Shown here piece by piece: positions 66-21,838 of a stretch of DNA of 21,838 nt; position 1 is the stretch's first letter, and every line of letters starts with the position of its first letter. Origin of the DNA: a virus; IMG/VR virus record IMGVR_UViG_3300018875_000072, positions 1-21,838 of that record; one strand, given 5' to 3'. The position numbers were made by a program, and so were the translations under genes. Under the pieces are notes generated by a model that was not told the origin of the DNA, made no database searches, and saw only the letters and a program-made list of their open reading frames with translations.

Positions 66-142
66 ATGGGCAAACGAACGACTTGATCGGCAAGCCGTTC
101 TTTTACCGGATGCCGGATGCGCTTCGGCTGTGTTTTCGATGA
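62..142 (+). CDS. Possible 26-residue peptide between two coupled genes
   Basis: ATG at 62 follows a very strong ribosome binding site (GGAAGGAGGGGG, about 5 nt away). The frame gives a 26-residue peptide starting MNGQTNDL and ending in TGA at 140-142, which overlaps the next ATG (139) as ATGA. Both ends are therefore in coupled configurations. The peptide is short and matches no family I know. It may serve mainly as a leader that delivers ribosomes to the next gene, or it may be the end of a longer gene, since the frame is also open upstream to the window edge. Confidence 0.35.
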   Translation: MNGQTNDLIGKPFFYRMPDALRLCFR

Positions 143-993
143 GAGAGGCGATCAAACAGGCCGTTATGGAATTGGTGCCGGAGCTTGCGGGACGGATTTA
201 TGACGTGCATCCGCCCGAGGGCGCTGTAGATGATTTTTTTGCGGTGCTGCAGCTTGGCGAGGATGTATGGAAGTCACCTTGGGCCGGTTACCGGCAGGTG
301 ATTAGGCTGAAGCTGTACGCAGGCGAGGCTATCGTCTCGCGGCAGCTGGATTCGCAGGCGGAGCGGCTCATACAGGGACTGCATCGCAAGCGGGTAACAG
401 GTCCGGAGAACCGAGCCTTCAAGCTTCATTACCTTGGCGTTCCGGAAGCGGATCAATGGGATTCCGGCCTGGGCTTCATGATCCGGGTTATCCGTTTCGG
501 CGTTTATGCCCCGGAAGCGTCAGCCGACGGCGGAGGCTCCGGTAGCATCGGCGCACCGGATGAATGGCTTTCAGCGCTGATCGTGTGGACTTCCAAGCAG
601 CTCGGAAGCAGCTGGAGCGTTTACCGGACCTCATGGCCGGCGGATCGGGAAGACCATGCCGTGCTGTGGCGATTGTCAGGGTGTGAGACGAAGATGGCGG
701 GAGCGTCCGTATACGAAATCAGCAAAAGCTTCACAGGTCATGTGGCGTCTACTTCTTCTGAGCATGAACAGCTTACGGCATTTTCGCTGGTGGAGTCGCT
801 CGGCTCCCAGGCCCAGCTGCCGCTTGACTCCGAGGCTGGCCGGTATTTGTCCGTCGCCGGTATTTCCGGCAATTTGGAGGCCGATGCGATCTTGAACGGT
901 CAGCTCAAGCTGACGCTCATCCAGCGGCAGATGCGTTCGGCGCAGGAAGCTGCAAGGATTCGCCGCGTTCATGTTCAACCGATTTTAAATTAA
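139..993 (+). CDS. Tail-terminator-like protein with two tandem domains
   Basis: A 284-residue protein using the ATG at 139, chosen because it overlaps the preceding TGA as ATGA. The frame is open back to base 1, but nothing supports an earlier start. Residues 1 to about 126 look like a DUF3168/gpU-type tail terminator: an N-terminal helix, then RIYDVHPPEG, a strand with FFAVLQL, and a C-terminal strand ending near VIRFGVYAPE. A Gly/Ser-rich linker (about 128-140) leads to a second domain (about 141-284) with a similar plan, containing EWLSALIVWTSKQLG, WSVYRTSWP and, late, a LNGQLKLTLIQR strand. Tail terminators cap the tail tube and join it to the head. Position ahead of the sheath gene fits the XkdI/XkdJ slot of PBSX. 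Module 2 has a single-domain protein at the same place. Assignment is by pattern and position, not by a clear signature. Confidence 0.55.
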   Translation: MREAIKQAVMELVPELAGRIYDVHPPEGAVDDFFAVLQLGEDVWKSPWAGYRQVIRLKLYAGEAIVSRQLDSQAERLIQGLHRKRVTGPENRAFKLHYLGVPEADQWDSGLGFMIRVIRFGVYAPEASADGGGSGSIGAPDEWLSALIVWTSKQLGSSWSVYRTSWPADREDHAVLWRLSGCETKMAGASVYEISKSFTGHVASTSSEHEQLTAFSLVESLGSQAQLPLDSEAGRYLSVAGISGNLEADAILNGQLKLTLIQRQMRSAQEAARIRRVHVQPILN

Positions 994-1005
994 GGGGGAC
1001 TCGAG

Positions 1006-1215
1006 ATGGCGGTTAAGAAATCAACCAAGACGGAAGTGAACAGCGGGAGTGAGCCGCGGTATGCATTGGCTGAGTTGACGGCTCATGCCAAGGAGCGGTT
1101 CGGCGTCCGGCCGGAAGTCATTGCGGGCGCGATGTACGGGGCAGCGGGCGGGCTGTTTACCGTGGCGGAGGTACAAGAACAAATCAAACATTTTATGAAA
1201 GCGAAGGTGGACTAA
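1006..1215 (+). CDS. Small tail protein preceding the sheath (YkzL position)
   Basis: A 69-residue protein with a good ribosome binding site (AAGGGGG, about 7 nt before the ATG). It starts with a Lys-rich tail, and its second half has the pattern FTVAEVQEQIKHFMKAKVD. The module 2 gene at 13855-14028 occupies the same place and ends with a related pattern, YTVQQAKEQLTTFLKKEVI. In PBSX a small gene (ykzL) sits just before the sheath gene xkdK. The function of this family is not established; it may be a small head-tail joining or assembly protein. The sheath ATG follows 2 nt after its stop codon, so the two are probably co-translated. Confidence 0.6.
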   Translation: MAVKKSTKTEVNSGSEPRYALAELTAHAKERFGVRPEVIAGAMYGAAGGLFTVAEVQEQIKHFMKAKVD

Positions 1216-1217
1216 TC

Positions 1218-2687
1218 ATGGCGGGAGGAACATGGGATAGCACGAATAAACCGGTATTGCCGGGTTTGTATATGAATTTTAAAGCGGCGGCAGCCTCAGC
1301 GATTCAGGGCGGCGCACGCGGGACGGTCATCGTTCCCGTTAAAGCGAACTGGGGGCCGGTACGCGAGTTTGTCGAGATTGGAAGCGAGCATGCGATCGGC
1401 GAGTCGTTCTCCGCAGATCATGAAAATGGAGCAACCGCTTATCGGACGCTGTATCTGGCGCTGCTGGGCGGTCCGAAAAAGCTGCTCGCGTACCGTCTTG
1501 CGGACAGCACGGCTTCGGCGGCATCAATTACGCTGCAAAATGGCGAAGCGACGCCGTCCGATGTGCTGCAGCTTCAGGCTAAATATCCGGGCAGCCGCGG
1601 AAACGGCTTCTCGGTAACGATTCAGCCGTCGCTGATGGATCCGGCTGCTCGGGAGCTTCGCCTGTATGAAGGGGCCAAGCTGCTCGGCACCTATGTTGGC
1701 GCCGACGGTACGGCAGCATCGATCGCTGCGAAGATGAATGAGGACGAGGAGAACGTCTGGGTGAGCGCAACTGTGCTCGGCGATGGCAGCGCAGTGCCTG
1801 CTGACGTCAACGGCGCAGCATTCACGGGCGGAACCAGCGGCAACAGCGGGATTACCAATGCGGATTATCTTGAGTTTCAAGAAGCCGCCCAAGGCCAACA
1901 GTTCGATGTCGTGGCGCTGGACTATGCGGCCGACATGTCCTTGCTTCAGAGCTTTGCCGCTTGGGTGAAGCGCCTCCGCGAGGAAGGCCGCGGGGTTATG
2001 GCCGTATTCGGCGGAAGCGCGGCCGACGATGTGTCCAAGGATGCGCCGAAGACCGCAGCTGCCCGTTCGCTTGCGCTGAACCATGAAGGCGTCGTGAACG
2101 TCGGCACCGGCGTACGCTTGTCCGGCGTGGATTACAGCTCCGCGCAGACAGCCGCCTATGTGGCCGGTTTGATTGCAGGTCAGCGGCTGAACCAGTCCGC
2201 TACATACGCGGTGACGCCGTTTGAGGATGTCACCCGCCGCTGGAGCCGCTCGGAACAGGAGCTTGCGGTTCAAAGCGGCGTTTTCCTGCTTATTTTCGAC
2301 GGACGCCAGGTGAAAGCTCTGCGCGGCATCAATACGCTCGTGAACCCGGTGGAGGGCCAGAACAATGCGTGGAAGAAGATCCGTTCGATCCGCGTCATGG
2401 ACGCCATTCATGCCGATCTGCAGGCGGCCGCCGAAGGCACGTACATCGGCAAGGTGAATAACACCGAGGAAGGAAGGCTTGCCCTGATCGGCGCCGTGAA
2501 AGAATATTTGGCCCAGCTGTCGCTGAGCAATGTCATCGAGCCGGATGGCTATGACGTCATTCTGGACCCTGCCTATTACGGCGATTCCGCCGTGAGGCAG
2601 CCGGAGCCGGATCAAGTGTTCCTGCAATGGAATGTGAAGCTGACCGATGTGATGGAGCAGCTGTTCGGCACGTTTTACGTGCAGTAA
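1218..2687 (+). CDS. xkdK: Contractile tail sheath protein, module 1 (XkdK-like)
   Basis: A 489-residue tail sheath subunit. It forms the outer contractile cylinder, whose contraction drives the tube through the target envelope. The N-terminus MAGGTW followed by NKPVLPGLY is typical of PBSX XkdK-type sheaths and is shared with the second sheath at 14029 (MAGGTW, NKVRPGVY). The middle contains KYPGSRGNG, matched by ARYGGERGN in the second copy. The C-terminal part has RVMDAIHADL and TYIGKVNN, again matched in the second sheath (RVLDGIANDL, SYIGKVDN); this is the conserved core that makes sheath-sheath and sheath-tube contacts. It is about 50 residues longer than the module 2 sheath, mostly in the middle. 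Its start is set by GAAGGTGG upstream and its place 2 nt after the previous stop. Confidence 0.93.
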   Translation: MAGGTWDSTNKPVLPGLYMNFKAAAASAIQGGARGTVIVPVKANWGPVREFVEIGSEHAIGESFSADHENGATAYRTLYLALLGGPKKLLAYRLADSTASAASITLQNGEATPSDVLQLQAKYPGSRGNGFSVTIQPSLMDPAARELRLYEGAKLLGTYVGADGTAASIAAKMNEDEENVWVSATVLGDGSAVPADVNGAAFTGGTSGNSGITNADYLEFQEAAQGQQFDVVALDYAADMSLLQSFAAWVKRLREEGRGVMAVFGGSAADDVSKDAPKTAAARSLALNHEGVVNVGTGVRLSGVDYSSAQTAAYVAGLIAGQRLNQSATYAVTPFEDVTRRWSRSEQELAVQSGVFLLIFDGRQVKALRGINTLVNPVEGQNNAWKKIRSIRVMDAIHADLQAAAEGTYIGKVNNTEEGRLALIGAVKEYLAQLSLSNVIEPDGYDVILDPAYYGDSAVRQPEPDQVFLQWNVKLTDVMEQLFGTFYVQ

Positions 2688-2855: not shown

Positions 2856-3263
2856 ATGTTGGATGCTTCAAGAGTCATTATGGGAACGTATGGCCAGGCC
2901 TATATCGACGGGGTATGGCAGACGCATATTAACAAGCTGGAAGCTAGCGTGGAGCTTGAGAAGCGCGAGCTGAAGCTGGTCGGCAACGACTGGACGGTGC
3001 ATAAGAGCGGGAGCAAAAAAGGCACCGGCACGATGAGCGGCTATAAGGTCACATCGGATATGATCGCCCGCGGCTTTACGAAGTTCGATATTATTTCCAA
3101 GCTGGACGACCCGGAATCGTACGGTCATGAGCGCGTGCGCCTGATCCGCTGCATGCCGGACAAGATCCAGCTCGCAAACTGGACTGCGGGTGAAGAAGTG
3201 CAGGAGGAGACATCGTTCACCTTTGAGGGGTACGAGCTGCTCGACCCGATTTCGGCGGACTAA
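2856..3263 (+). CDS. xkdM: Tail tube protein, module 1 (XkdM-like)
   Basis: A 135-residue tail tube subunit, which polymerises into the inner tube inside the sheath. Length and pattern fit the XkdM family (about 130-150 residues). The stretch with KLEASVELEKRELKLVG, then a GTGTMSGYKVTS turn, aligns by eye with the module 2 tube (TLEATVEKEKAELKTMG, then GSGTMTIYYVTS). The C-terminal EETSFTFEGYELLDP is the closing strand, matched by EVAFTFENVRIETP in the second copy. The ATG follows GAGGAGG at good spacing. The gene is set apart by a 168-nt leader upstream and a terminator-like hairpin downstream, which fits separate, high-level expression of a major structural protein. Confidence 0.9.
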   Translation: MLDASRVIMGTYGQAYIDGVWQTHINKLEASVELEKRELKLVGNDWTVHKSGSKKGTGTMSGYKVTSDMIARGFTKFDIISKLDDPESYGHERVRLIRCMPDKIQLANWTAGEEVQEETSFTFEGYELLDPISAD

Positions 3264-3440: not shown

Positions 3441-3875
3441 ATGAGCTTGAACGAGCATTTGAGCGAAGAGCAAATTTTGGACAGCCTGTTCGAGGCGGCG
3501 GAGAAGCTGCCGGAGGAAACGGTGCGCATCAAGCGGCTCGATATGCAGATCGTGCTGCACGGTTTGACTTCGAGCAAGGTGGACAGCATCCGCGAGCGCT
3601 GCACGGTCCGCCGGAACGTGAAAGGCGCGGTGGATGAGAAGGTGGATACGGAGACGTTTAACGCGCTCCTGATTTCGGAAGCGACTGGCAGCTTGTCCGT
3701 CAAAGGGCTGACGCTGAACGGCTGGGGCGATCCGCGCATTACCAGCCGCTTGAAGCTGTCGGGCGGAGAGCAAGCGGTCCGCCGTATGCTGCTGGCCGGG
3801 GAGCTGGATGCCGTCGGCGATAAGGTGCTTGAGCTGTCCGGCTTCGGAGTCGAGATCGCCGACCTAAAAAACTGA
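3441..3875 (+). CDS. xkdN: Tail assembly chaperone, module 1, zero-frame product (XkdN-like)
   Basis: A 144-residue protein lying between tube and tape measure, where long-tailed phages encode a tail assembly chaperone (G of the lambda G/GT pair; XkdN in PBSX). It starts after AAAGGGGA with an ATG at 3441. It contains an N-terminal helical segment (LSEEQILDSLFEAAEKLPEE split by a short turn), a middle strand region, and a C-terminal helix pair with MLLAGELDAVGDKVLELSGFG, matched in module 2 by MLLPGEFAALGERVQALNGFD. It ends in AAA AAC TGA, where a slippery sequence permits a -1 shift into a 53-residue extension. The protein is expected to coat the tape measure during tube assembly and not to be in the finished tail. 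Confidence 0.82.
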   Translation: MSLNEHLSEEQILDSLFEAAEKLPEETVRIKRLDMQIVLHGLTSSKVDSIRERCTVRRNVKGAVDEKVDTETFNALLISEATGSLSVKGLTLNGWGDPRITSRLKLSGGEQAVRRMLLAGELDAVGDKVLELSGFGVEIADLKN

Positions 3876-5893: not shown

Positions 5894-6529
5894 ATGGAGT
5901 TTATTTTGAAGAACGGCAAAGGGAAGGAATTTATATTTCCGGTTAATCCCGAGGAAGTGACCATCTCACGGCAAAAGGGCTTTGAAACGGCAACGATTCT
6001 AGCCTTTGGCGAGTTTGATTTTCCGCAGGGAAACAAAATCAAGGAAATATCCTTCTCTTCTTTTTTTCCAAAAGAGTTCGATGAATCATACTGCAAAGGA
6101 AGCCGGGATTCGCACCCGAAACCGCAAACGGCCATGAATACGCTCAATGAGTTCCTGGTGTCCAAAACGCCGCTTCAGTTTATCATTACCGAAACCGCGG
6201 TCAATGTACCGGTGTTCGTGGCTTCCCATCAAACGACGTTTCGCGGCGGGGAGCAGGGGGATGTGTATTTCGACCTGACCCTCCGGACGTGGAGTGAGAT
6301 GAAAGTAGCGAAAACCGCCGGCGCATCGGGCATCAACAAAAAGCCGCGGGCCGACATGAAGGAGAAGAGCAAGACTTACACGGTCAAGCCGGGGGACTCC
6401 CTCTCCAAAATCGCCAAGCTGGAGCTCGGGGACAGCTCGAAATGGAACCAGATCTATACACTGAACCGGCAAGCGATCGGCAACAATCCAAATGCCATTA
6501 AACCCGGTCAAAAGCTGGTGCTGCCATGA
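5894..6529 (+). CDS. xkdP: LysM-domain baseplate protein, module 1 (XkdP-like)
   Basis: A 211-residue protein with AAAGGAGGGG before its ATG. Residues 1-135 are the phage-specific domain: FPVNPEEVTISRQKG, then ISFSSFFPKEF, matched in module 2 by FPVNPERIEVKDGSEG and ISFESFFPGR. Residues about 160-211 form a LysM domain (YTVKPGDSLSKIAKLELGDS to the end, GQKLVLP). LysM binds peptidoglycan or, in tail baseplates, joins tube and hub parts, as for phage T4 gp53-like proteins. Here the C-terminal LysM follows a short Lys-rich hinge. The stop overlaps the next start as ATGA (6526-6529). Confidence 0.9.
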   Translation: MEFILKNGKGKEFIFPVNPEEVTISRQKGFETATILAFGEFDFPQGNKIKEISFSSFFPKEFDESYCKGSRDSHPKPQTAMNTLNEFLVSKTPLQFIITETAVNVPVFVASHQTTFRGGEQGDVYFDLTLRTWSEMKVAKTAGASGINKKPRADMKEKSKTYTVKPGDSLSKIAKLELGDSSKWNQIYTLNRQAIGNNPNAIKPGQKLVLP

Positions 6530-7503
6530 GTTATAAAGTGATTTTGCAGGACAAATACGATTTGTCGCCTCTGGTGGAAGCTATCAACTTAAGGGATTCG
6601 CTGGAGCAGGTCGCCTATCAAGGCACGGTGAACCTGGTGGTGACGCCGGACTTGCCGCCGATTTCTCCGGGGATGGCGATTCGGATCAGCGGTATTCCCT
6701 ATGGGAAGAAGGACTATGTTCCCTTGCTCCATCCGGCTGTGGTTTGGGAAGCGGAGACTACGAACAATGGCGTGAAGCGGATGACGCTGACGATCTATGA
6801 CCGGACGGTCTATCTGGATAAATCCGAGGATGAATATTTGTTCCCAGCAAAACAGACCGCAACGCAGCGCTTCAAAAAGTACGCGGCCGACTGGAACATC
6901 AAGATCGCCCATCTGCCCGATACCGAAAAACAGCTCGGACGCTCCGTTTACCGGACGCAGTCGATCTATGCCAGCATGTTCGCCGATTTGCGGGAAACGG
7001 CCAAGGCCGGCGGCAAGCTGTACCATCCGCGCATGATCCCTTCGGGACTCGAGCTGTATGAGCTGGGGTCAAACCGCGAGGTATATGTCTTAGAGACGTT
7101 AACCGATACGATCCAGCAGCGGACGCTCGAAGGGGCGGCGACCAAGGTCAAGGTGCTGGCAACATCGGCCAGCGAGACCGGGAAGGAGGTCCCTTCGAAG
7201 GTAATGGCCATCGAAGAGAAGGATATCGCGAAATACGGGCAGCTGCAGGCGATCATCCAGGACGATGAGGTGAAATCCGCCGCGGCCGCGCGTCAGCTGG
7301 CCCGAAGCAGGCTCCGGGGGATCCGGGAGACGATCACGGTAAACGCTCCGGACATCAACACAATTCGCGCAGGAGATGCCGTCATGCTCGGTTCGTCGAA
7401 GCTGCTTGTGATTTCGGTCAGCCGGGAGCTCGGCAATCCGGGAAACATGATGCTGGAGCTTGGGAGCTATGACGATGTAAAAAGGAGGTTTTATCTTGAG
7501 TAA
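6526..7503 (+). CDS. xkdQ: Baseplate hub protein, module 1 (XkdQ-like)
   Basis: A 325-residue protein in the XkdQ position, whose family corresponds to the tail hub (gpD/gp27-like) below the tube. It starts by ATGA overlap with the LysM gene. The N-terminal half is beta-rich (VKRMTLTIYDRTVYLDKSED, then EYLFPAKQTATQRFKKYAADW), equivalent to EVKLMAYDQLRYLSSNDTYR and TNAKVEDIIRKIAKDF in the second copy. The C-terminal part has the AARQLARSRLRGIRETITV and INTIRAGDAVML stretch, matched in module 2 by KQLAQNLLELKNREQQTLSI and LRVRAGNTIYV. No lysozyme domain is present. Confidence 0.85.
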   Translation: MSYKVILQDKYDLSPLVEAINLRDSLEQVAYQGTVNLVVTPDLPPISPGMAIRISGIPYGKKDYVPLLHPAVVWEAETTNNGVKRMTLTIYDRTVYLDKSEDEYLFPAKQTATQRFKKYAADWNIKIAHLPDTEKQLGRSVYRTQSIYASMFADLRETAKAGGKLYHPRMIPSGLELYELGSNREVYVLETLTDTIQQRTLEGAATKVKVLATSASETGKEVPSKVMAIEEKDIAKYGQLQAIIQDDEVKSAAAARQLARSRLRGIRETITVNAPDINTIRAGDAVMLGSSKLLVISVSRELGNPGNMMLELGSYDDVKRRFYLE

Positions 7504-7885
7504 AGACCCCTATGGACAATTAGCATCCTCCTTGCTGTCTTCCTTCCATAAGCAGACCCGCCAAGCGATCGGCGGAGTGGGAGCCGTACTCGGCACGATA
7601 ACCTCGACCGGACTCAAGCTGGATGATTTCAAGCATGAGCTGCAAGAGTATATGGTTGCCGAGCTTCCGGGCCAATTGTCGCTGCCCCGCCGAACCGTAG
7701 AAGGAACGATCAGCGGAGATGGCGGCAAGTCGGCAGTCTCTTTGGAATTGGAGGAAACGGAAGTGGAGGAGGCACAGTGGAAGCTGAACCAAGGATTACA
7801 ACCCGGCGATCGAGTGCTAGCGGTACGCGTCAACGGCGGCCATGACGTCGTCGTGGTGTGCAAGGTGGTGAGCGGTCATGGCTAA
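7496..7885 (+). CDS. xkdR: DUF2577-type baseplate protein, module 1 (XkdR-like), TTG start
   Basis: A 129-residue protein whose TTG start at 7496 is fixed by AAAGGAGG at the right distance and by its overlap with the hub gene's stop. It has a predicted OB/beta-barrel region (VEGTISGDGGKSAVSLELEE split over two strands, then LQPGDRVLAVRVNGGHDVVVV), fitting the DUF2577/XkdR family, a small baseplate protein next to the hub. The module 2 copy is shorter (99 residues) and closer to the usual form, with GLEIGDTVLLLRYQGGQTYLVL. Residues 1-65 of this copy are an extra helical section. Confidence 0.72.
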   Translation: MSKDPYGQLASSLLSSFHKQTRQAIGGVGAVLGTITSTGLKLDDFKHELQEYMVAELPGQLSLPRRTVEGTISGDGGKSAVSLELEETEVEEAQWKLNQGLQPGDRVLAVRVNGGHDVVVVCKVVSGHG

Positions 7886-8339
7886 TTTGTTCCCCGAAAC
7901 GGAGGACATGATCTGGACCGATCCAGTTGGGCTTGAAGCGTCCGAAAACCACAGGGCCATATTCGGGCGGAGCTGGCGGTTTGATTTTGAAGCCGGAGAA
8001 TTTGTTATGACCCCAACCCGAAAATTGGCTGCAGCGGATGAGAAGGACGCATGGGTCGTCTGGTGTGAAAAAACGATTCGAACCCCGCGCTACCGGCATT
8101 TGATCTATTCACGCGGCTATGGCAGTGAATTGGAGGAGCTGATCGGCAAGCGGCATGGCCGTCCGCTGTTGGAGAGCGAAATCCGGCGGATGGTATCTGA
8201 AGCGCTGCTGGCGGATGCCCGCACGGAGAGCGTGGATCAATTCCAGTTTGAATGGGAAGGGGAAGCCTGCCGTTTCAGCTGCCGCATCACGAGCGTACGG
8301 GATGAAACGGAAATGATAGAAAGCGTGGTGATGACCTGA
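7878..8339 (+). CDS. xkdS: DUF2634 baseplate wedge protein, module 1 (XkdS, gp25-like)
   Basis: A 153-residue protein overlapping the previous gene by 8 nt and the next by one base (TGATG). It shows the DUF2634/gp25-like motif TPRYRHLIYSRGYGSELEEL, aligned with TRRFEHLIYSSDYGHELYDV in module 2. The region around W52-W54 (SWRFDFEAGEF) is the expected N-terminal strand. In T4, gp25 joins the wedge and starts sheath polymerisation, and the XkdS family is thought to do the same. It is probably translated with XkdT by coupling. Confidence 0.85.
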   Translation: MANLFPETEDMIWTDPVGLEASENHRAIFGRSWRFDFEAGEFVMTPTRKLAAADEKDAWVVWCEKTIRTPRYRHLIYSRGYGSELEELIGKRHGRPLLESEIRRMVSEALLADARTESVDQFQFEWEGEACRFSCRITSVRDETEMIESVVMT

Positions 8340-9493
8340 TGGCCGATGTGCCGATGTATTTGCAGGAACAGACGGAAGAGAACATTTTGAACCGTATGCT
8401 GGCAAAAGTGCCTTCGGATATCGATAAATCCGAGGGCTCTTTTATTTGGGACGCACAGGCGCCGGTGGCGTTCATGCTGTCTGAAGCGGCCCTGTGGGCG
8501 CAGGAGCTGCTGCGACGAGGGTTTGCCAGCACGGCGGCCAGCGACTCCCCGGATATCCGCTCAGCCGAGCTGGATCTTCGGACAGCCGAGCATGGCGTCA
8601 CAAGACGCGAGGCGGTTGCTTCATCGGGAAGTGTCGTGTTCACGGGGAAACCGGGCACGAACGTCCCGAAGGGAACGTATGTGGCAACGCCGGCCGACGA
8701 GACGACCGGGGAGTCTTCAGTTGAGTATGTCACGACAGCGAGTGTCACACTGGGACAGGACGGTACCGGAACAGCTCCGATCCGTGCCGTAACTCCAGGG
8801 AAGAGCGGCAATGTGCCGGCAGGGGTCATCCAGCTGATGATGACCTCCGTCAGCGGCGTCACGTCCGTGACAAATCCCGAGCCGACGCGGAGCGGGACTG
8901 ATATTGAGACGGATCAGTCGCTGCTGGAGCGTTTTTACGCAAAGGTCAGAAGCCAGGGGACCAGCGGCAACAAAGCGCAGTATATGCAGTGGGCCAGCGA
9001 AATACCCGGCGTCGGCGGCGTGGAGGTCGCCCCTCTGTGGGCCGGACCGGGAACGGTCGGCCTCTATTTGCTGGACACGGACAAGCGGGCGGCTAGCCAG
9101 GAGATCGTGGATGCCGTCCAGCGGCATATCGACCCGACGCAGGATGGACAAGGGGAGGGGACGGCTCCGGCAGGTCCTATCGTCACCGTCATGCCGGCCG
9201 AGGAAGTCGAGATTCATATCTCGGTCAAGGTACAGCGCACCCAGGAGCAGCCGTCCACGATTGAGGAAATCCGTGCACTGATTGAGGAAGGGGTCCGGGC
9301 TTACCTGCAGCAGATCGCGTTTAACCGGAAGGACCCGCTTGTCCGGTATACGCGTATTGCCGCCGTGCTGCTGGATATCCCGATTATCGTCGACTATTCG
9401 GAGCTGACGATTAACGGCCAAGCCGAGCAGCAAAACATCGAAATCGGCTCCGGCCAGGTGGCGGTGCTGGGGACGGTGAGCGTAAGTGAATAA
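8339..9493 (+). CDS. xkdT: Baseplate J protein, module 1 (XkdT-like)
   Basis: A 384-residue gpJ-type baseplate wedge protein (Baseplate_J family). The N-terminus shows TEENILNRMLAKVPSDIDKSEG, split here by phase, with an acidic SEGS pattern typical of XkdT. The middle contains the jelly-roll region with VPKGTYV and VTPGKSGNVPAG. The C-terminal half has GTSGNKAQYMQWASEIPGVG, then APLWAGPGTVGLYLLD and IDPTQDGQGEGTAP. These last motifs are almost the same in the module 2 protein (FPLWDGPGTVKVVLLD, IDPTMDGMGEGAAP). J subunits form the trigger ring of the baseplate. The start overlaps the preceding stop by one base. Confidence 0.92.
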   Translation: MADVPMYLQEQTEENILNRMLAKVPSDIDKSEGSFIWDAQAPVAFMLSEAALWAQELLRRGFASTAASDSPDIRSAELDLRTAEHGVTRREAVASSGSVVFTGKPGTNVPKGTYVATPADETTGESSVEYVTTASVTLGQDGTGTAPIRAVTPGKSGNVPAGVIQLMMTSVSGVTSVTNPEPTRSGTDIETDQSLLERFYAKVRSQGTSGNKAQYMQWASEIPGVGGVEVAPLWAGPGTVGLYLLDTDKRAASQEIVDAVQRHIDPTQDGQGEGTAPAGPIVTVMPAEEVEIHISVKVQRTQEQPSTIEEIRALIEEGVRAYLQQIAFNRKDPLVRYTRIAAVLLDIPIIVDYSELTINGQAEQQNIEIGSGQVAVLGTVSVSE

Positions 9494-12549: not shown

Positions 12550-12681
12550 ATGTTATCCATTTTCTTTGCTCAACGTGTGATCCTAGGTAAAACCAAGTAC
12601 AACGAAGTACCGTCCACATTGCAGCCGGGCGTACGCGATATCTTGGTTGATAGCGGACTGGAATTCCTGATCGAAGAATAG
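12550..12681 (+). CDS. XkdX/CD1375-like small protein
   Basis: A 43-residue protein (MLSIFFAQRVILGKTKYNEV, ending VDSGLEFLIEE) with an unusually complete ribosome binding site. It resembles the small proteins of XkdX or CD1375 type that follow the tail fibre genes in PBSX-like elements: a short hydrophobic start, a VILGK turn, a VPSTLQPGVRDIL helix and an acidic end. Function in that family is not known. It was probably next to the XkdW-like gene before the endonuclease gene was inserted between them. Confidence 0.65.
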   Translation: MLSIFFAQRVILGKTKYNEVPSTLQPGVRDILVDSGLEFLIEE

Positions 12682-12692
12682 TTATACCATTA

Positions 12693-12713
12693 GCGCCGAA
12701 AGGCGTATTTTTT
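12693..12713 (+). terminator. Intrinsic terminator 1 of module 1
   Basis: GCGCC (12693-12697), GAAA tetraloop, GGCGT (12702-12706), then A and six T (12708-12713). The stem has four GC pairs plus one G-T wobble. It follows the small XkdX-like gene and ends the module 1 operon. Confidence 0.85.
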
Positions 12714-12715
12714 AT

Positions 12716-12744
12716 GCCCTTGGGTGGTCCGGGGGCTTTTCTTT
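12716..12744 (+). terminator. Intrinsic terminator 2 of module 1
   Basis: GCCCTTGG (12716-12723) pairs with CCGGGGGC (12729-12736), with two G-T wobbles over a 5-nt loop, followed by TTTTCTTT (12737-12744). It lies directly after terminator 1, so read-through from module 1 into the downstream region should be low. Confidence 0.7.
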
Positions 12745-12766
12745 ATACAGACAGGGGGAGAGGGTC

Positions 12767-13172
12767 ATGCCGGAAGGAGACGTGGTTGACATTGAGCAAT
12801 TACGATCTAAACATGCAGAGTTAACGCAACACCTGCAAAACCTTAGCGGCGAATTTGCTCGATTGTCGGCGGAGGCCGTCGCGCCGAATAACGGTTTAAA
12901 CTGATCGAGCAGACAGCAGATCGTCACGATGACGAGATTCGCCAGCTCAAGAATTCGACCAGGTTAATGCAAATCCACTTCAAGCAGGTGATGGGAAGAT
13001 TGACACGCTCGAGATGAAGCTATTCAACTGGCTGCAGCAGACGCAGAAAGAAAATGCGAAGGAGCGTACGGCCAGCCAAAAGCAATGGATACAATTTCTT
13101 CAGTTCGGGCTCGGCGGGACGATCATCGCCATCGTGACTTTCATTTTTGCTAAGGGGGCGTTCGGGCAATGA
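12767..13172 (+). pseudogene. xhlA: Broken XhlA-like lysis/holin-accessory gene
   Basis: The pieces of one protein lie in three different frames. From ATG 12767 (after GGGGGAGAGGG) 45 codons read MPEGDVVDIEQLRSKHAELT and onward, ending in TGA at 12902-12904. From 12901 another frame gives LIEQTADRHDDEIRQLKNS. From about 12940 to TGA 13170 a third frame gives IDTLEMKLFNWLQQTQKENA, then QFGLGGTIIAIVTFIFAKG, a single transmembrane segment with a short end. A charged coiled coil followed by one C-terminal membrane helix is the XhlA (PF10779) plan, which acts with XhlB and an amidase in PBSX lysis. Two frameshifts are needed, so it is probably non-functional; a 52-residue piece from ATG 13014 could still be made but has no clear ribosome binding site. 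Confidence 0.75.
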
Positions 13173-13334
13173 AGCTTATTGATCTACGAGGGAAGCTTCC
13201 GACCCACAAAACAAAGCGGTATAAGACGCGCAGACTATCGGATATCCCACTCGATTGCGATCCATCACTCGTTGACCTTGTCCGGATCCTCGGAAGATCA
13301 CGTTGGAAGAGTACAAGCTAATCTCAAATGTTAA
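13169..13334 (+). pseudogene. Truncated, frameshifted N-acetylmuramoyl-L-alanine amidase
   Basis: ATG 13169 overlaps the XhlA-like stop as ATGA. The first frame reads MKLIDLRGKLPTHKTKRYKT, then loses sense near 13245. From 13251 the next frame over gives SIAIHHSLTLSGSSEDHV and stops at 13332-13334. IAIHHSLT is the zinc-ligand region of Amidase_2 (PF01510) endolysins, and the N-terminal stretch is typical of such enzymes in Paenibacillus-type prophages. Only about 55 codons of a gene usually over 450 nt long remain, with one frameshift; the rest is missing. Together with the XhlA remnant it marks a decayed lysis cassette. Confidence 0.75.
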
Positions 13335-13354
13335 TGATGCAGCCTAGGGGCCAC

Positions 13355-13382: not shown

Positions 13383-13420
13383 GCACTGTGCTTTTTACAC
13401 TCTACCGAAAGGAGCACCCC

Positions 13421-13858
13421 ATGCTAACCCAACACATCACGGATGCCCTGGCATCCCGATTAAACAGCTCCTTCCCCGGCATCCCCCTGATTTCCAAGGA
13501 GGATGCCGTTCCTATACCAGAACCACCCTACTTCCATACCGAGCTGGCGCTAGCCGAATTCGAGCCGATATCGCAACGACGATATGCGGCTCGTTTTCGT
13601 TTCCGCATCTTTTATGAGCCTGCGGCGGGACAGCCCGTAGCAGGGATCATGGACGAGATGCTGGAGAGCTTGACGGAGCTCGAAGTGGACGGCCGGCCAT
13701 GCCGGGCGGCGGCGGTCGCATGGGAGCGGCCGGAGAGGGAAGGAGCTGCGGCGGAAGAAGGATACTTCCGCGCGGAGTATGTCATTCAGGTATCTTCGGA
13801 TTCAGCTGAATCCGTTCCAAAGATGCAAACCTTACAACAAGGAGGCGGTTTGAAATGA
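13421..13858 (+). CDS. Tail terminator-like protein, module 2
   Basis: A 145-residue protein; the ATG at 13421 is chosen because AAAGGAG lies 7 nt before it. It has an N-terminal helix (LTQHITDALASRLNSSFPGI), the strand region RRYAARFRFRIFYEP, a helix (GIMDEMLESLTELEVDG) and a final strand (GYFRAEYVIQVS). This is the outline of the tail terminator family found before xkdK in PBSX-like elements. It caps the tail tube and completes the tail end that joins the head. Its stop overlaps the next start as ATGA. It is single-domain, unlike the 139-993 protein of module 1. Confidence 0.65.
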   Translation: MLTQHITDALASRLNSSFPGIPLISKEDAVPIPEPPYFHTELALAEFEPISQRRYAARFRFRIFYEPAAGQPVAGIMDEMLESLTELEVDGRPCRAAAVAWERPEREGAAAEEGYFRAEYVIQVSSDSAESVPKMQTLQQGGGLK

Positions 13859-14028: not shown

Positions 14029-15348
14029 ATGGCCGGAGGAACATGGACAACACCTAACAAAGTAAGACCTGGGGTATATACCCAAATTACATCACTGGAG
14101 CAGCCAATCGGACGCGTCGGTGAACGCGGGACTGCCGCGTTGGGACTCTCGCTTCCATGGGGAGAGCCGCATAAGCTCCTCACTATCAAACCAGGCAGCA
14201 ATCTGCTGGAGCTATTGGGCTATGATATCACGTCGCCTGAGCTGCTGCTGGTAAAAGAAACGCTCAAGCGGGCAGGAACGCTTATGCTGTATCGCCTGAA
14301 CAGCGGCGTACAGGCAGCAGGCGCCGTAGCAGGGCTTAGCGTGACCGCTCGATATGGCGGGGAGCGCGGCAATGATATCCGCATCGTGATCGAGAACGCG
14401 GTCGATGATCCGGGCAAGTTCGTCGTCAGCACCTTGCTGAGCGGCAAAGCAGTAGACAAGCAGATCGTCGCAAGCGCAGCAGAGCTGCAGCCGAACCTGT
14501 ACGTAACCTTCGTGCCGGATACCGGCGATTTGGCCGCAACGGCAGGTTTTGCGCTGGCAGGCGGTGCGAACGGGACCGTGACGAACCAGGAGCATGTCGA
14601 TTTTCTGGCTGCGCTTGAGGTTCATGACTTCCAGACGGTGGGATTGGCTTCGGATGATGCTACCCTCAAATCGCTGTACACGGCGTTCATCAAGCGCTTG
14701 CGCGAGCAGGAAGGCAAAAAGGTGCAGGCCGTGCTTCCGGATTATCCGGCGGCGGATTACGAAGGCATTATCAGCGTGAAAAACGGCGTTGTCCTTATCG
14801 ACGGCACCGTCGTGGACAAGGTTAAGGCGGTTGCCTGGGTGACGGGCGCCACGGCTGCTGCTGCCGTTAATGAGTCGCTGACGTATGCGGCTTATGATGA
14901 AGCGGTCGATACCGATGTTCGCCTGAGCCATACGGAAATTGAAGAAGCTTTGACGAAGGGCGAATTCCTGTTCAGTTACAGTGGCGGCAAAGCCGTGGTG
15001 GAACAAGACATTAACAGCTTTACGTCGATTGAACCGGCGAAGGCGCGCCATTTTTCCAAAAACCGGGTAGTCCGCGTCCTGGACGGCATTGCGAACGATC
15101 TGAAGCTCATCTTCGAGCAGTCGTACATCGGCAAAGTCGACAACAACGTGGACGGCCGAACGCTGTTCTGGGCAGAATGCGCGGCATATTTCGCTTCCCT
15201 GCAGAATATCGGGGCGATCCAGAACTTCAACGCGAATGAGGATATTGCGGTGACGCCAGGTACCGAGGGTGACGTGCTGTTCGTCGATATCAAGGTTCAG
15301 CCGGTCGATGCAATTGAAAAAGTATACATGAAAGTGAAGGTGGTCTAA
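14029..15348 (+). CDS. xkdK: Contractile tail sheath protein, module 2 (XkdK-like)
   Basis: A 439-residue sheath protein, close to the usual XkdK length. N-terminus MAGGTW, NKVRPGVY as in PBSX. Inner motifs include VTARYGGERGNDIRIVIENA, DFLAALEVHDFQTVGLASDD and IKRLREQEGKKVQAVL. The C-terminal sheath core has RVVRVLDGIANDLKLIFEQS, then YIGKVDNNVDGR and VDIKVQPVDAIEKVYMKVKV. The same landmarks occur in the module 1 sheath but overall identity by eye is low, so each module probably polymerises its own sheath. It follows a strong AAAAAGGAGG site. Confidence 0.93.
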   Translation: MAGGTWTTPNKVRPGVYTQITSLEQPIGRVGERGTAALGLSLPWGEPHKLLTIKPGSNLLELLGYDITSPELLLVKETLKRAGTLMLYRLNSGVQAAGAVAGLSVTARYGGERGNDIRIVIENAVDDPGKFVVSTLLSGKAVDKQIVASAAELQPNLYVTFVPDTGDLAATAGFALAGGANGTVTNQEHVDFLAALEVHDFQTVGLASDDATLKSLYTAFIKRLREQEGKKVQAVLPDYPAADYEGIISVKNGVVLIDGTVVDKVKAVAWVTGATAAAAVNESLTYAAYDEAVDTDVRLSHTEIEEALTKGEFLFSYSGGKAVVEQDINSFTSIEPAKARHFSKNRVVRVLDGIANDLKLIFEQSYIGKVDNNVDGRTLFWAECAAYFASLQNIGAIQNFNANEDIAVTPGTEGDVLFVDIKVQPVDAIEKVYMKVKVV

Positions 15349-15349: not shown

Positions 15350-15808
15350 ATGGCATTTTTACGTGCAAGCGATACGATTTCGGGACAAGAGGGCAAGGCA
15401 TTCGTCAAGATTGGCGACCGTATGGAGGAAATGTTTTATATCAAAACGCTGGAAGCTACGGTGGAGAAAGAGAAGGCTGAGCTGAAAACGATGGGCCAGC
15501 GCGCTGTACAGCATAAGGCGATCGGCTGGAAGGGCAGCGGCACGATGACCATCTATTATGTCACCTCGCTGTTCCGCGAGCTGATGATGGAATATATCCA
15601 GACCGGACAGGACGCTTATTTCATGATCGAGGTCCGCAACGAGGATCCGGGCTCGTCCACCGGAAGGCAGACGGTCATCCTGGAGGGGGTCAACCTCGAC
15701 AGCGTCATCATGGCTTCCTTGGATACCGAAGCGGAGGCGCTGGAGGAAGAAGTGGCGTTTACGTTTGAGAACGTGCGGATCGAAACCCCGTTCAACCCAT
15801 TGGCCTAA
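15350..15808 (+). CDS. xkdM: Tail tube protein, module 2 (XkdM-like)
   Basis: A 152-residue tube subunit beginning one base after the sheath stop; GAAGGTGG in the sheath's last codons is the ribosome binding site. It shows TLEATVEKEKAELKTMGQRA, then KGSGTMTIYYVTSLFRELMM and a final VAFTFENVRIETP strand. It is about 17 residues longer than the module 1 tube. Unlike module 1, no leader or terminator-like hairpin isolates the gene, so sheath and tube are closely coupled here. Confidence 0.92.
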   Translation: MAFLRASDTISGQEGKAFVKIGDRMEEMFYIKTLEATVEKEKAELKTMGQRAVQHKAIGWKGSGTMTIYYVTSLFRELMMEYIQTGQDAYFMIEVRNEDPGSSTGRQTVILEGVNLDSVIMASLDTEAEALEEEVAFTFENVRIETPFNPLA

Positions 15809-15835: not shown

Positions 15836-16258
15836 ATGAGCGATTTTAGCATGTTTTTTGCGGGTCAGTCGCCGGCGGAGATCACGGAGGAATTCGTGGT
15901 CTCCATTCGTTTCAAGGATGCGGAGGGCAAGCCCGTTCCGTGGAAGCTGCGCAGCATTACGGAGGAGGAGAACCAGGAGTGCCGCCGTGCCGCCACCCGC
16001 AAGGTGAAGGGCAAGAACGGCGTGTATACGCCGGAGATCGATCCGAATGACTATATGGCGAAGCTGATGGTGACGAGCGTCATTTACCCGGATTTGAAAA
16101 ACAGCGAGCTGCAAAAATCCTACGGCGTGCTTGGCGCGGAGTCCCTGCTGCGCAAAATGCTGCTTCCGGGCGAGTTTGCGGCGCTCGGCGAGCGCGTGCA
16201 GGCCCTTAACGGCTTTGACCGCGATATGAACGAGCTGGTGGATGAAGTAAAAAACTAA
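15836..16258 (+). CDS. xkdN: Tail assembly chaperone, module 2, zero-frame product (XkdN-like)
   Basis: A 140-residue protein after AGAGGAGGAAGG. It begins MSDFSMFFAGQSPAEITEEF and continues with a beta section (FVVSIRFKDAEGKPVPWKLR), then a helical end with SLLRKMLLPGEFAALGERVQ and ALNGFDRDMNELVDEV. This is the XkdN/phage tail assembly chaperone pattern, and it looks more typical than the module 1 copy. It stops in AAA AAC TAA, with an in-phase slippery site giving a longer product by -1 shift. Confidence 0.88.
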   Translation: MSDFSMFFAGQSPAEITEEFVVSIRFKDAEGKPVPWKLRSITEEENQECRRAATRKVKGKNGVYTPEIDPNDYMAKLMVTSVIYPDLKNSELQKSYGVLGAESLLRKMLLPGEFAALGERVQALNGFDRDMNELVDEVKN

Positions 16259-18379: not shown

Positions 18380-19096
18380 ATGAGCGATTACGGGCTGTTT
18401 CTGAGTTTTAATAATCAACAGGAAGTATTCCGCTTTCCGGTCAATCCGGAACGGATCGAGGTCAAGGACGGCAGCGAGGGGAAATCCTACACCGTGGCCG
18501 GACTTGGCGAGATCAACGCGATCCTGTATCCGAAGCTGACCGAAATTTCGTTTGAAAGCTTTTTTCCGGGACGAACGTATCCTTTCGTCAATACAAGCAA
18601 GGACAAGCTGAAGCTCCCCATCGACTATGTAAACACCATCAAGGGATGGATGGAGAGCCGAAGACCAGTGCGATTTGTCATGACGGGTCTGGTCCCCGAT
18701 CCGCTCAGCGGTACGGACAGCGGGAATGTGGTACGGGCGATGAAATCCTTCGGCATCAACATGGCGGCCTCCATCGAGAGCTTCAGCTGGAACACGATGT
18801 CCGGTTCGCCGGAGGATATCGAATTTTCGATCACCCTCAAGCGCTATGTGTTCTATGGCGCCCGCAAGGTTGTGCCGGCGAAGAACAGCAAGGCGGCAGC
18901 GGTGAAGACCAAAGAGCGTCCGGATGACCGGAAGAAGCCGAACTCGTATACCGTAGCCAAAGGGGACACGCTCTGGAGCATTGCCCAAAAGCTGCTCGGC
19001 AGCGGCTCCCGCCATACCGAAATCCAAAAGCTGAACGGCATCAAGGACCATGAGGTTCGGAAGCTGGCCGTCGGCCGAGTTTTGAAAATTCCGTAA
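18380..19096 (+). CDS. xkdP: LysM-domain baseplate protein, module 2 (XkdP-like)
   Basis: A 238-residue protein starting one base after the tape measure stop; GAGGGGGTG in the tape measure end is its ribosome binding site. Residues 1-155 form the XkdP N-terminal domain (FRFPVNPERIEVKDG; LTEISFESFFPGRTY; VRFVMTGLVPDP). A Lys-rich hinge leads to a LysM domain at about 190-237 (SYTVAKGDTLWSIAQKLLGS, ending VGRVLKIP). It is a baseplate part near the hub that may bind peptidoglycan. Architecture equals that of module 1's 211-residue protein. Confidence 0.92.
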   Translation: MSDYGLFLSFNNQQEVFRFPVNPERIEVKDGSEGKSYTVAGLGEINAILYPKLTEISFESFFPGRTYPFVNTSKDKLKLPIDYVNTIKGWMESRRPVRFVMTGLVPDPLSGTDSGNVVRAMKSFGINMAASIESFSWNTMSGSPEDIEFSITLKRYVFYGARKVVPAKNSKAAAVKTKERPDDRKKPNSYTVAKGDTLWSIAQKLLGSGSRHTEIQKLNGIKDHEVRKLAVGRVLKIP

Positions 19097-19108
19097 AGGG
19101 GTGACGGC

Positions 19109-20074
19109 ATGATCGAGCTGATGATAGACCGGAAGAACGGAAGCGTATGGGATCTCGGGCAGGTCGTCACCGACATCACGTGGAAAACAGGCCGACAGGC
19201 GAAGCCGGCCAGTCTGGATATTCGCTTCGTGAACGACGGTTTGGCGCAGAGCCGGCAATTCCAGATCGAGAATGGTGACATCGTCCGGTTCCGCAAGGAT
19301 GATAAGGATTTGTTTTACGGTTATGTTTTTTCCAAAGAGTGGGGCATGGATGCCGAGGTGAAGCTGATGGCCTACGACCAGCTGCGCTACCTGTCCAGCA
19401 ACGACACCTACCGGTTTACGAACGCCAAGGTGGAGGACATCATTCGCAAGATTGCCAAGGACTTCAATCTGAAGACAGGGACGCTGGCCGATACGGGACA
19501 CGTCATTCCGGCGATGCTGGAAGCGGACAAGAAGCTGATCGATATCATCTGCAAAGCGCTGGATGCGACGCTGATGGCCACCAAGCAGTACTATATGTTT
19601 TACGACGAGTTCGGAAAGCTGACGCTCAAGAACATCAAGGACATGCTGCTGATGCTGGCCGTTGGGGAAGACAGTCTGATGACGGATTTTTCCTATAAAA
19701 AGAGCATCGACAACGAAACGTACAATCGAATTAAGGTCGTGCGCGATAACAAGCAGACCGGGAAGCGGGATGTCTACCTCTATCAGCATGGAGAGAACAT
19801 TGCCCAGTGGGGCCTTCTCCAGCTGTACGAGGTTGCCGATGAGAACATGAATCCGGCGCAGCTGAAGCAGCTTGCCCAAAATTTACTGGAGCTGAAGAAC
19901 AGGGAGCAGCAGACGCTCTCGATCGAGGCGATCGGCGATCTGCGCGTCCGGGCAGGGAACACGATTTATGTCAATCTCCCCGGCGAGGGCTTGATGCCGT
20001 ATCTCATCGATGAGTGCTCGCACAAGTTCTCGGATGGGACGCATACGATGTCGCTGAATATGAAGGTGGTGTAA
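19109..20074 (+). CDS. xkdQ: Baseplate hub protein, module 2 (XkdQ-like)
   Basis: A 321-residue hub protein with AAAGGGGTGA before the ATG. It begins MIELMIDRKNGSVWDLGQVV, then VTDITWKTGRQAKPASLDIR, a typical XkdQ start. The middle has EVKLMAYDQLRYLSSNDTYR, then TNAKVEDIIRKIAKDFNL and HVIPAMLEADKKLIDIICKA, and the end has LRVRAGNTIYVNLPGEGLMP. This family lies under the tube tip and holds the spike. It aligns in outline with the 6526-7503 protein, but it is more canonical. Confidence 0.9.
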   Translation: MIELMIDRKNGSVWDLGQVVTDITWKTGRQAKPASLDIRFVNDGLAQSRQFQIENGDIVRFRKDDKDLFYGYVFSKEWGMDAEVKLMAYDQLRYLSSNDTYRFTNAKVEDIIRKIAKDFNLKTGTLADTGHVIPAMLEADKKLIDIICKALDATLMATKQYYMFYDEFGKLTLKNIKDMLLMLAVGEDSLMTDFSYKKSIDNETYNRIKVVRDNKQTGKRDVYLYQHGENIAQWGLLQLYEVADENMNPAQLKQLAQNLLELKNREQQTLSIEAIGDLRVRAGNTIYVNLPGEGLMPYLIDECSHKFSDGTHTMSLNMKVV

Positions 20075-20077
20075 GTC

Positions 20078-20377
20078 ATGATGCTGGATATTATCAAAAA
20101 AGCGAGCCTGAGCGCCGTGGGAAGCACGAATCCCGTAGCGGTGCTGTATGGCACGGTAACATCGGTAAATCCTCTCGAGGTGAACGTGGATCAGCGGTTC
20201 AGCCTGACAGAGGATTTTTTAGTGATCGGAGAGTCCATGACAGAGTACAGACTGGACATTGACGGTCAGGACGTGCTGATCCGCAAAGGGCTTGAGATCG
20301 GGGATACGGTGCTGCTGCTCCGTTATCAGGGCGGACAAACGTATCTTGTGCTGGATCGGCTGGTGAAGCCGTCATGA
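20078..20377 (+). CDS. xkdR: DUF2577 baseplate protein, module 2 (XkdR-like)
   Basis: A 99-residue protein; ATG at 20078 or 20081 follows GAAGGTGGTG at the end of the hub gene. The pattern VAVLYGTVTSVNPLEVNVDQ, then IRKGLEIGDTVLLLRYQGGQ and TYLVLDRL, is typical of DUF2577 and of OB-fold spike or hub parts. The stop overlaps the next start as ATGA. It is the standard length for the family, in contrast to the 129-residue module 1 copy. Confidence 0.88.
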   Translation: MMLDIIKKASLSAVGSTNPVAVLYGTVTSVNPLEVNVDQRFSLTEDFLVIGESMTEYRLDIDGQDVLIRKGLEIGDTVLLLRYQGGQTYLVLDRLVKPS

Positions 20378-20787
20378 TTCCGCAGGGAGGCACGATTCAA
20401 CCGGATACCGAAGTGGTGGAGCGTCTGGACCAGCCGAGCTTGACCTACCGATTGAACCTGGAAGAGGGGACGTTGTCCGGTCAAATTGACGGGCTAGAGG
20501 CGATCAAGCAGGCCGTCGCCAAGGTGCTCCAAACCCGCCGCTTCGAGCACCTGATCTACAGCAGCGATTACGGCCATGAGCTGTATGATGTCATCGGGCG
20601 TGACCCGCTGTGGGCGTATGCCGAGATTGAGCGCCATATCAAGGAAGCGCTGCTTCAGGACGACCGGATCCTGTCGGTCGATGACATGGATATTTCATTT
20701 GCCGGGGAGACGGCAATGGCGGAATTTACGGTCCGAACCGTGTATGGGCCGTTTGCGATGACGAAGGAGGTGAGGGAGGATGTATGA
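20374..20787 (+). CDS. xkdS: DUF2634 baseplate wedge protein, module 2 (XkdS, gp25-like)
   Basis: A 137-residue protein starting inside the stop of the previous gene. It shows the gp25-like section AIKQAVAKVLQTRRFEHLIY, then SSDYGHELYDVIGRD and IERHIKEALLQDDRILSVDD. These match the module 1 protein at 7878 in order and spacing. It is expected to nucleate the sheath on the baseplate. The stop lies 8 nt into the next gene. Confidence 0.9.
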   Translation: MIPQGGTIQPDTEVVERLDQPSLTYRLNLEEGTLSGQIDGLEAIKQAVAKVLQTRRFEHLIYSSDYGHELYDVIGRDPLWAYAEIERHIKEALLQDDRILSVDDMDISFAGETAMAEFTVRTVYGPFAMTKEVREDV

Positions 20788-21838
20788 GGAGCAGACCTAT
20801 GAAGCGATCCTGGAACGGATGCTGGGCCGGGTGCCGGATGGACTGGACAAAAGAGAGGGAAGCATTATCTATGACGCGCTGGCCCCTGCCGCCGCGGAGC
20901 TTGCGCAAGCTTACATTGAGCTGAGCTCTTCCATGAACTTCAAGTTTGCCGCCACGGCTTCCGGCGAGTTTCTGGACCGAAGCATCGCCTGGTCGGGGCT
21001 GACGCGTAAGCAGGCTACGAAGGCGCGGCTGCGCGGACGTTTTACGGGAGAACAAAATCTACCGGCGGAGGTTCCGATGGGGAGCCGTTTTTCGCTTGAT
21101 GCGTTAAACTACACGGTCATCGGCCGGCTGGATGCGGGCGAGTATGTGCTGGAATGCGAGACGGTCGGCCAAGAGGGCAACCGGCGGTTTGGCCCGTTGC
21201 TGCCGCTGGATTATATCGAAGGCTTGGTGAAGGCGGAGCTGTTGGCATTGCTGGCACCCGGAGAAGATACCGAGTCCGATGAAGCGTTATATGATCGTTA
21301 CCGGGAAAAAATCTCACGACCCGTCACCAGCGCGAACCGAAATCAATATGAGCTGTGGGCGCGGGAGCAAGCCGGCGTTGGCAAAGCCAAAGCCTTTCCG
21401 TTGTGGGACGGGCCGGGAACGGTTAAAGTTGTCCTGCTGGACAATGAGATGAGATCGCCTGCGCCATCTATTGTAGAAGCTGTGCAGAAATATATCGATC
21501 CCACGATGGACGGGATGGGTGAGGGAGCCGCTCCCGTCGGCTCCGTTGTGACGGTGGCCGGGGCGGTTGAAGTGCCTGTTAACATTGAGGTGCAGGTGAC
21601 CCTCCTGGATGGTGCGGGCTTGGACGGCGTCCAGCAAGCGATTGAAATGGGCGTTCGCCAATATTTGAAGGATCTTGCCATGACAGACCCGCTGGTCCGG
21701 TATAACCGGATTGCCAACGTCATCCTGGATATTCCCGAAGTCATCGACTACGAGGTGCTGACCATCAATGGAGGTACCGAGAGCATCTTGATTGAACCGG
21801 AAGCGGTCGCCGTACTGGGGACGGTGACGGTGCGATGA
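20780..21838 (+). CDS. xkdT: Baseplate J protein, module 2 (XkdT-like)
   Basis: A 352-residue gpJ-type wedge protein, complete to the TGA at 21836-21838, the last bases of the window. It starts MYEEQTYEAILERMLGRVPD and has GSIIYDALAPAAAELAQAYI, a jelly-roll part, and the shared motifs SANRNQYELWAREQAGVGKA, FPLWDGPGTVKVVLLD and IDPTMDGMGEGAAP. It is 32 residues shorter than the module 1 J protein, mainly in the middle. AAGGAGG and GGGAGG lie just upstream inside the previous gene. The XkdU-like gene of module 2 should begin at or just beyond the window edge. Confidence 0.93.
   Translation: MYEEQTYEAILERMLGRVPDGLDKREGSIIYDALAPAAAELAQAYIELSSSMNFKFAATASGEFLDRSIAWSGLTRKQATKARLRGRFTGEQNLPAEVPMGSRFSLDALNYTVIGRLDAGEYVLECETVGQEGNRRFGPLLPLDYIEGLVKAELLALLAPGEDTESDEALYDRYREKISRPVTSANRNQYELWAREQAGVGKAKAFPLWDGPGTVKVVLLDNEMRSPAPSIVEAVQKYIDPTMDGMGEGAAPVGSVVTVAGAVEVPVNIEVQVTLLDGAGLDGVQQAIEMGVRQYLKDLAMTDPLVRYNRIANVILDIPEVIDYEVLTINGGTESILIEPEAVAVLGTVTVR

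Follow-up and report, generated by a model that had tools for sequence, protein, structure and literature searches.

What does it mean that a sequence catalogued as a virus holds the genes of a contractile tail twice? In IMG/VR record IMGVR_UViG_3300018875_000072, a stretch of 21838 bases that is referred to here as the window, nine tail genes are doubled, both sets lying on the + strand and in identical order. Module 1 spans positions ~139-11805 and module 2 positions 13388-21838, with its end beyond the window. The sheaths of modules 1 and 2 are 97% and 95% identical, respectively, to those of Paenibacillus lactis DSM 15596, and the nearest relatives of the window are P. lactis and its kin, from which the flanks in the window strain were deduced, since the record stops short. 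We read the locus, with a probability of about 0.75, as a dual R-type tailocin locus from which two separate particles would be induced and released together. With the same confidence, the window would represent the central part of a dual tailocin locus that Paenibacillus has domesticated, and which most likely equips the cell with two different contractile weapons.

The original prediction had named nine landmarks as occurring twice in shared order and on the shared strand, and all nine were found in both modules. The window contains exactly two matches to the sheath family PF04984, as well as two copies each of PF09393, PF08890, PF24032, PF10934, PF04865, and the LysM protein. For DUF2577 the statement holds in module 2 (PF10844), whereas the module 1 protein in that position falls below the Pfam DUF2577 model, matches PHROG 2403 instead, and resembles its module 2 counterpart weakly. 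The two sets had been described as sharing landmarks with little overall identity, in agreement with the 23-43% of the aligned pairs: sheath 31%, tube 38%, tail assembly chaperone 30%, tape measure 24%, LysM protein 29%, hub 23%, DUF2577 27%, sheath initiator 33%, and baseplate J 43%. Pairwise BLAST E-values ranged from 1e-3 to 1e-69 for all pairs but the tape measures, which gave no significant match, and the most similar pairs are J and gp48 (~48%). Each module carries its own tape measure and baseplate genes, as had been proposed. The contractile tail set of module 1 (tube, sheath, tape measure, hub, baseplate, fibre) is complete within the window, and the gp48, fibre, and lysis genes of module 2 lie outside it, gp48 and fibre being present in relatives. 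The tape measures of 593 and 641 amino acids (aa) differ by 48 aa, so that particles of nearly equal length are predicted and length in electron microscopy would discriminate poorly between them.

Both chaperone genes carry the slippery heptamer A AAA AAC directly before the stop (3866-3872 in module 1, 16249-16255 in module 2), with -1 extensions of 53 aa and 57 aa, respectively. A heptamer followed by a -1 extension corresponds to the G/GT frameshift known from tail chaperones, and both genes are predicted to contain -1 frameshift sites; the heptamer is preserved in both chaperones of 12/12 tandem relatives. In another Paenibacillus genome, G062 (L203), chaperone 1 is read as a longer open reading frame (ORF) with no slippery heptamer ahead of the stop, in contrast to all further copies of this lineage checked in Paenibacillus; either an in-frame fusion that arose naturally or an error in the sequence may account for this.

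Do the two copies stem from one tail or from two? Trees of 67 sheaths and 62 J proteins, built by a quick method and with some long branches, group module 1 with BalMu-1/phiCD418 (hereafter lineage 1) and module 2 with PBP180/EJ-1/Powder (lineage 2), with support of 99-100. The nearest phage sheaths are that of BalMu-1 for module 1 (35%) and those of Brevibacillus phages for module 2 (50%), and the best solved sheaths are phage gp55 (2.7e-67) and 3HXL (1.1e-143), respectively, each of which matches the other module far more weakly. These separate clades, different nearest phages, and different solved structures point to two tail lineages and not to recent duplication, which is ruled out by the trees and the pair identities; the claim that two independent tail lineages meet in one locus is thereby supported. 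The label PBSX-like, which had been used in the original prediction, is appropriate for module 2 and not for module 1, which has the BalMu-1/phiCD418 tail. A plain tandem duplication followed by divergence would explain the identical gene order, but such order is usual for this tail type and, barring long-branch artefacts in both trees, known phages branch between the copies with support of 99-100, which makes this explanation almost certainly wrong.

Tandems of this kind recur beyond the record. The original prediction had suggested surveying related genomes for the layout, and it was found in 12 Paenibacillus species and in other Paenibacillaceae. Among 100 Paenibacillus species genomes, a close sheath 2 (82-95% identity) accompanied by a lineage-1 sheath ~10-14 kb away was present in 12, in the P. 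lactis/lautus/glucanolyticus group (G001 P. lactis, G002 P. lautus, G003 P. glucanolyticus, G005 P. solani, G006, G007 P. campinasensis, G019, G069, G072, G101, G105, and G130), and a thirteenth genome (G051) has a looser module pair. A lineage-2 sheath at 56-65% identity occurs in ~50 of the 100 genomes and a lineage-1 sheath alone in ~10. In a family sample of 150 genomes, at least nine have a sheath pair within 20 kb (G001, G180, G198, G222, G236, G243, G255, G261, and G262), and among the matches listed the lineage-1 carriers are mostly single-module. Two sheaths ~10-16 kb apart are also found in seven further virus records (G023-G029) and in G030 and G031; full layouts were read for G023, G024, G026, G027, G030, and G031. 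Single modules are thus the rule and tandems a recurrent minority. An assembly artefact was ruled out, since the tandem recurs in independent assemblies, on contigs up to chromosome size. In G030 and G031 (L178-L181) the first module represents a third tail lineage (sheath 28% identical to that of module 1, a 1286-aa protein in the tape-measure position), and it is followed by a PBSX-lineage module 2. Another genome, G120 (L199 1-8500), carries a single lineage-2 element that immediately follows an rRNA operon and a tRNA array, and the neighbouring ORFs of this element recur in G131, G093, and G109.

Across 13 tandem loci, integrity and selection were analysed. Nearly all core ORFs, in module 1 as in module 2, are full length, the exceptions being the module 1 LysM gene in G101 and the module 1 tape-measure and gp48 genes in strain DMB20. 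Median ratios of nonsynonymous to synonymous divergence (dN/dS) of 0.066 for module 1 and 0.055 for module 2 indicate strong purifying selection on both. The module 1 fibre is the divergent part, with dN/dS of 0.29-0.52 at dS of ~0.85 or more. Distances in the two modules are correlated across the 13 loci (r 0.88, 0/3000 permutations), and their trees have 5/10 splits in common, including the main groups, with few supported conflicts; this parallel divergence and the partly shared splits fit co-inheritance with some recombination. The possibility raised earlier that the locus could make two contractile particles is therefore strengthened as far as the genes are concerned, these being intact and under purifying selection in both modules, and we infer the particles themselves, their assembly without swapping of parts, their joint induction, their killing activity, and a difference in their targets.

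Several observations weigh against a dual tailocin, a reading that is drawn here from gene sequences. Strain DMB20 (G019; L164-L165) has the module order swapped, with the tape-measure and gp48 genes of module 1 interrupted. JCM 10914 (G004; L166-L167) has kept the flanks, with module 1 reduced to a fragment of its first gene at the same chromosomal site, which is loss of one module in place, and in G062 only a lineage-1 sheath was found; these three cases imply that either module is dispensable. Moreover, in the window strain itself the modules are separated by 1.6 kb that contain a homing endonuclease and broken lysis genes, so that read-through from module 1 to module 2 is uncertain there. 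The near-complete disappearance of module 1 in JCM 10914 and its interruption in DMB20 are also what would be expected if one module were a captured spare, as the original prediction had allowed, or a decaying leftover, the other alone making particles. In the other tandem loci, the core genes of neither module are broken, purifying selection acts on the two with equal strength across large synonymous distances, and both frameshift sites are retained, which makes a spare module unlikely. Independent acquisition was rejected as the origin of the DMB20 order: both modules are sisters of those of G130, and the swap is thus a rearrangement, for which a 352-bp repeat (94%) ahead of each module is perhaps the likely path; a shared leader ahead of module 2 was looked for in normal-order tandems and none was found. 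Beside the module 1 remnant of JCM 10914 lies a 629-aa protein that to us resembles a pectate-lyase-type spike.

Could the two sets nevertheless contribute to one mixed particle, or have baseplate or fibre parts in common? J (43%) and gp48 are the most alike of the pairs, and fibre cassettes have passed from one type of module to the other: families c17 and fib1 are found in both, which makes fibre exchange between the two chassis likely, and the 871-aa fibre family, a component of module 2 in P. lactis, belongs to module 1 in other elements. Against a mixed particle stand the complete set of each module, the sheath, tube, hub, and initiator pairs, which are 62-77% different, and the single-module elements of each lineage that exist alone in other species and suggest that each set is probably sufficient. 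We consider a mixed particle quite unlikely. Deriving from different phage tail lineages, each module probably assembles with its own parts only, which would give two particle types.

The pairing of the two lineages seems to have a history of its own. The lineage-1 sheaths found in tandems fail to group as a single clade (p-AU 4e-5; 0.005 without G051), which, together with the other partners in G051 and G030/G031, suggests more than one pairing event; several losses from an older tandem may also account for it. The loci can be arranged as a docking series, with lysis genes between the modules in G051, broken lysis genes in the window, and modules joined at a distance of only tens of bp in P. 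lactis. Tentatively, and at somewhat less than even odds, Paenibacillaceae may have repeatedly brought a tail of the BalMu-1/phiCD418 lineage and one of the PBSX lineage together under a common switch, trading fibres between them and keeping both tails because each reaches targets that the other does not.

Control and release appear to be common to the pair. In complete relatives, one M78/IrrE-type (ImmA-like) protease, one XRE repressor, and one ArpU-like activator (PHROG-248) precede the modules, and one glucosaminidase endolysin lies downstream. In the stretches read, the activator was not found in G007 and the protease not in G130, and the endolysin is not listed in G006 and DMB20. P. lactis has a Phage_holin_4_1 protein, whose cluster occurs also in G130; elsewhere it was not listed by the simple ORF caller. 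The same cassette also precedes single lineage-1 and single lineage-2 elements, so that both kinds of element in the genus use one type of switch. In P. lactis, module 2 begins 34 bp past the module 1 fibre, and no + strand terminator was found in this gap; the gap is likewise in the range of tens of bp in P. solani, and when measured from mechanically called starts it comes to a few bp in G072 and P. glucanolyticus. The inter-module stretch of the window contains two terminator-like hairpins, no more than expected by chance. Head genes (capsid, portal, terminase) were not seen in the window or the P. lactis locus, no dedicated head-gene search having been run on either; in P. lactis, all ORFs above ~130 aa from the control cassette to the endolysin are assigned or antisense to a tail gene. 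Host genes encoding an HD dGTPase-like protein and an LLM oxidoreductase recur downstream in several species. Insertion of the tandem at a tRNA was rejected, as the 40 kb that were read in P. lactis and in G069 contain none.

This arrangement also bears on whether the modules are merely two ordinary defective prophages that lie side by side by chance and do not form one working unit. The ~4 kb that separates the modules of G051, with what we take to be a holin-like and a lysozyme-like gene in between, and the broken lysis genes that persist between the modules of the window would suit chance neighbours. That 12 species keep the pair, generally with a single control cassette, a single endolysin, and no head genes observed, and that the gap measures tens of bp or a few bp in four of them, renders this explanation very unlikely.

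For the dual tailocin a sequence of events can be proposed. In ImmA/ImmR systems DNA damage relieves repression, and by analogy the ImmA-like protease would remove the repressor upon DNA damage. The activator would then switch on the tail operon, and transcription would run across module 1 first, then across module 2, before it reaches the endolysin. The two sets of parts would assemble into two headless contractile particles, each from its own parts, and lysis of a few producing cells by the endolysin would free both. Finally, separate fibres would select the targets and thereby give separate target spectra.

The features of the window are collected in Table 1. The first ORF of module 1 is open at the window edge, its conserved portion starts at ~139, and BalMu-1 has a gene of equal size in this place. 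Between the modules, an intact small ORF (12550-12681, PHROG 1382) is followed by a broken XhlA-like gene from 12767 and a broken amidase-like gene from 13169, both detected by three-frame translation and named by motif. The loci retrieved from relatives yielded no intact copy of these relics; they gave partial matches only for the first ~200 bases including the small ORF and carry an endolysin different from the broken lysis genes of the window.

Table 1. Genes and gene remnants of the two tail modules and the stretch between them in the window.
Feature	Position	Strand	Basis and remarks
Module 1 first gene	1..993	+	PHROG 2146; function unassigned; tail-terminator position
Module 1 small pre-sheath protein	1006..1215	+	PHROG 1939
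Module 1 tail sheath	1218..2687	+	PF04984 1.7e-29; best solved relative phage gp55 sheath
Module 1 tail tube	2856..3263	+	PF09393 7.7e-50
Module 1 tail assembly chaperone (XkdN-like)	3441..3875	+	PF08890 6.9e-21; -1 extension to 4033
Module 1 tape measure, 593 aa	4048..5829	+	Position; weak PHROG tail matches; length conserved in relatives
Module 1 LysM tail protein	5894..6529	+	PF01476
Module 1 hub (YqbQ/XkdQ-like)	6526..7503	+	PF24032 9.9e-24; solved XkdQ-related protein 3.2e-51
Module 1 DUF2577-position protein	7496..7885	+	PHROG 2403 6.3e-25; PHROG 579 weak
Module 1 sheath initiator (DUF2634)	7878..8339	+	PF10934 2.1e-36
Module 1 baseplate J	8339..9493	+	PF04865 7.2e-65; diffocin CD1371 2.1e-47
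Module 1 gp48-like baseplate protein	9486..10052	+	PF10076 4.1e-36
Module 1 tail fibre, 441 aa	10036..11361	+	PF03406 4.9e-16; PHROG 381; divergent part among relatives
Module 1 post-fibre protein	11374..11805	+	PHROG 3321
GIY-YIG/NUMOD3 homing endonuclease between modules	11860..12531	+	PF01541, PF07460
Inter-module relics	12550..13340	+	PHROG match, three-frame translation
Module 2 tail terminator	13388..13858	+	PF20765 4.4e-09
Module 2 tail sheath	14029..15348	+	PF04984 4.9e-37; best solved relatives 3HXL, 3LML
Module 2 tail tube	15350..15808	+	PF09393 1.9e-46
Module 2 tail assembly chaperone	15836..16258	+	PF08890 1.1e-40; -1 extension to 16428
Module 2 tape measure, 641 aa	16453..18378	+	PHROG 1068 1.6e-85
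Module 2 LysM tail protein	18380..19096	+	PF01476
Module 2 hub (YqbQ-like)	19109..20074	+	PF24032 1.6e-122; diffocin hub CD1368 N-terminal part
Module 2 DUF2577	20078..20377	+	PF10844 1.8e-23
Module 2 sheath initiator	20374..20787	+	PF10934 1.8e-26
Module 2 baseplate J	20780..21838	+	PF04865 3.2e-60; window edge is its stop

How does such a locus relate to known systems? The R/F pyocin locus of Pseudomonas aeruginosa encodes two tail-like bacteriocins with common control and lysis, one tail being contractile and one flexible, whereas both are contractile in the Paenibacillus locus. The diffocin of Clostridioides difficile (CD1363-CD1371; PDB 8V3T and related) is a Gram-positive R-type bacteriocin with homologous sheath, hub, and J; it is distant in sequence from the Paenibacillus modules and, to our knowledge, consists of a single module. 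The Bacillus defective phages PBSX and PBP180 share the lineage and gene order of module 2, but PBP180 has a single tail module together with genes for capsid, portal, and terminase, whereas in the Paenibacillus locus there are two tails and head genes were not seen. The tails of Bacillus phage BalMu-1 and Clostridioides phage phiCD418 share the lineage and gene order of module 1, with tape measures of ~1425-1441 aa versus 593 aa.

The closest likeness is with Pseudomonas protegens CHA0, in which a single cluster, with a single set of lysis genes, gives rise to two R-tailocins that in all likelihood descend from independent prophages (PMC7815802). There, too, two distinct contractile tailocins adjoin, with one regulator and lysis set, different prophage origins, and variable fibres (PMC7815802); the Paenibacillus locus has two complete modules of separate origin and, in the loci of relatives, one control and lysis set. 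CHA0 differs in being Gram-negative, in PrtR control, in its location between mutS and cinA/recA, and in its unequal tape measures, which are nearly equal in Paenibacillus; its particles have been studied by deletion (PMC7815802), whereas those of Paenibacillus are predicted from genes. In the open-access literature, to which the search was confined (subscription journals lying outside its scope), no Gram-positive or Paenibacillus precedent for a dual tailocin was found. The Paenibacillus locus appears to follow the CHA0 plan in a Gram-positive organism.

Pseudomonas is where dual tailocin loci have been characterised; given a conserved Gram-positive counterpart in Paenibacillus, a common soil genus, the bundling of two contractile weapons under one switch would have evolved more than once. 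The Paenibacillus loci would also offer a natural system in which to ask why two are kept, be it for a wider range of targets, as an insurance against receptor loss, or for fibre exchange. Moreover, virus catalogues such as IMG/VR would then list domesticated loci of this kind as phages.

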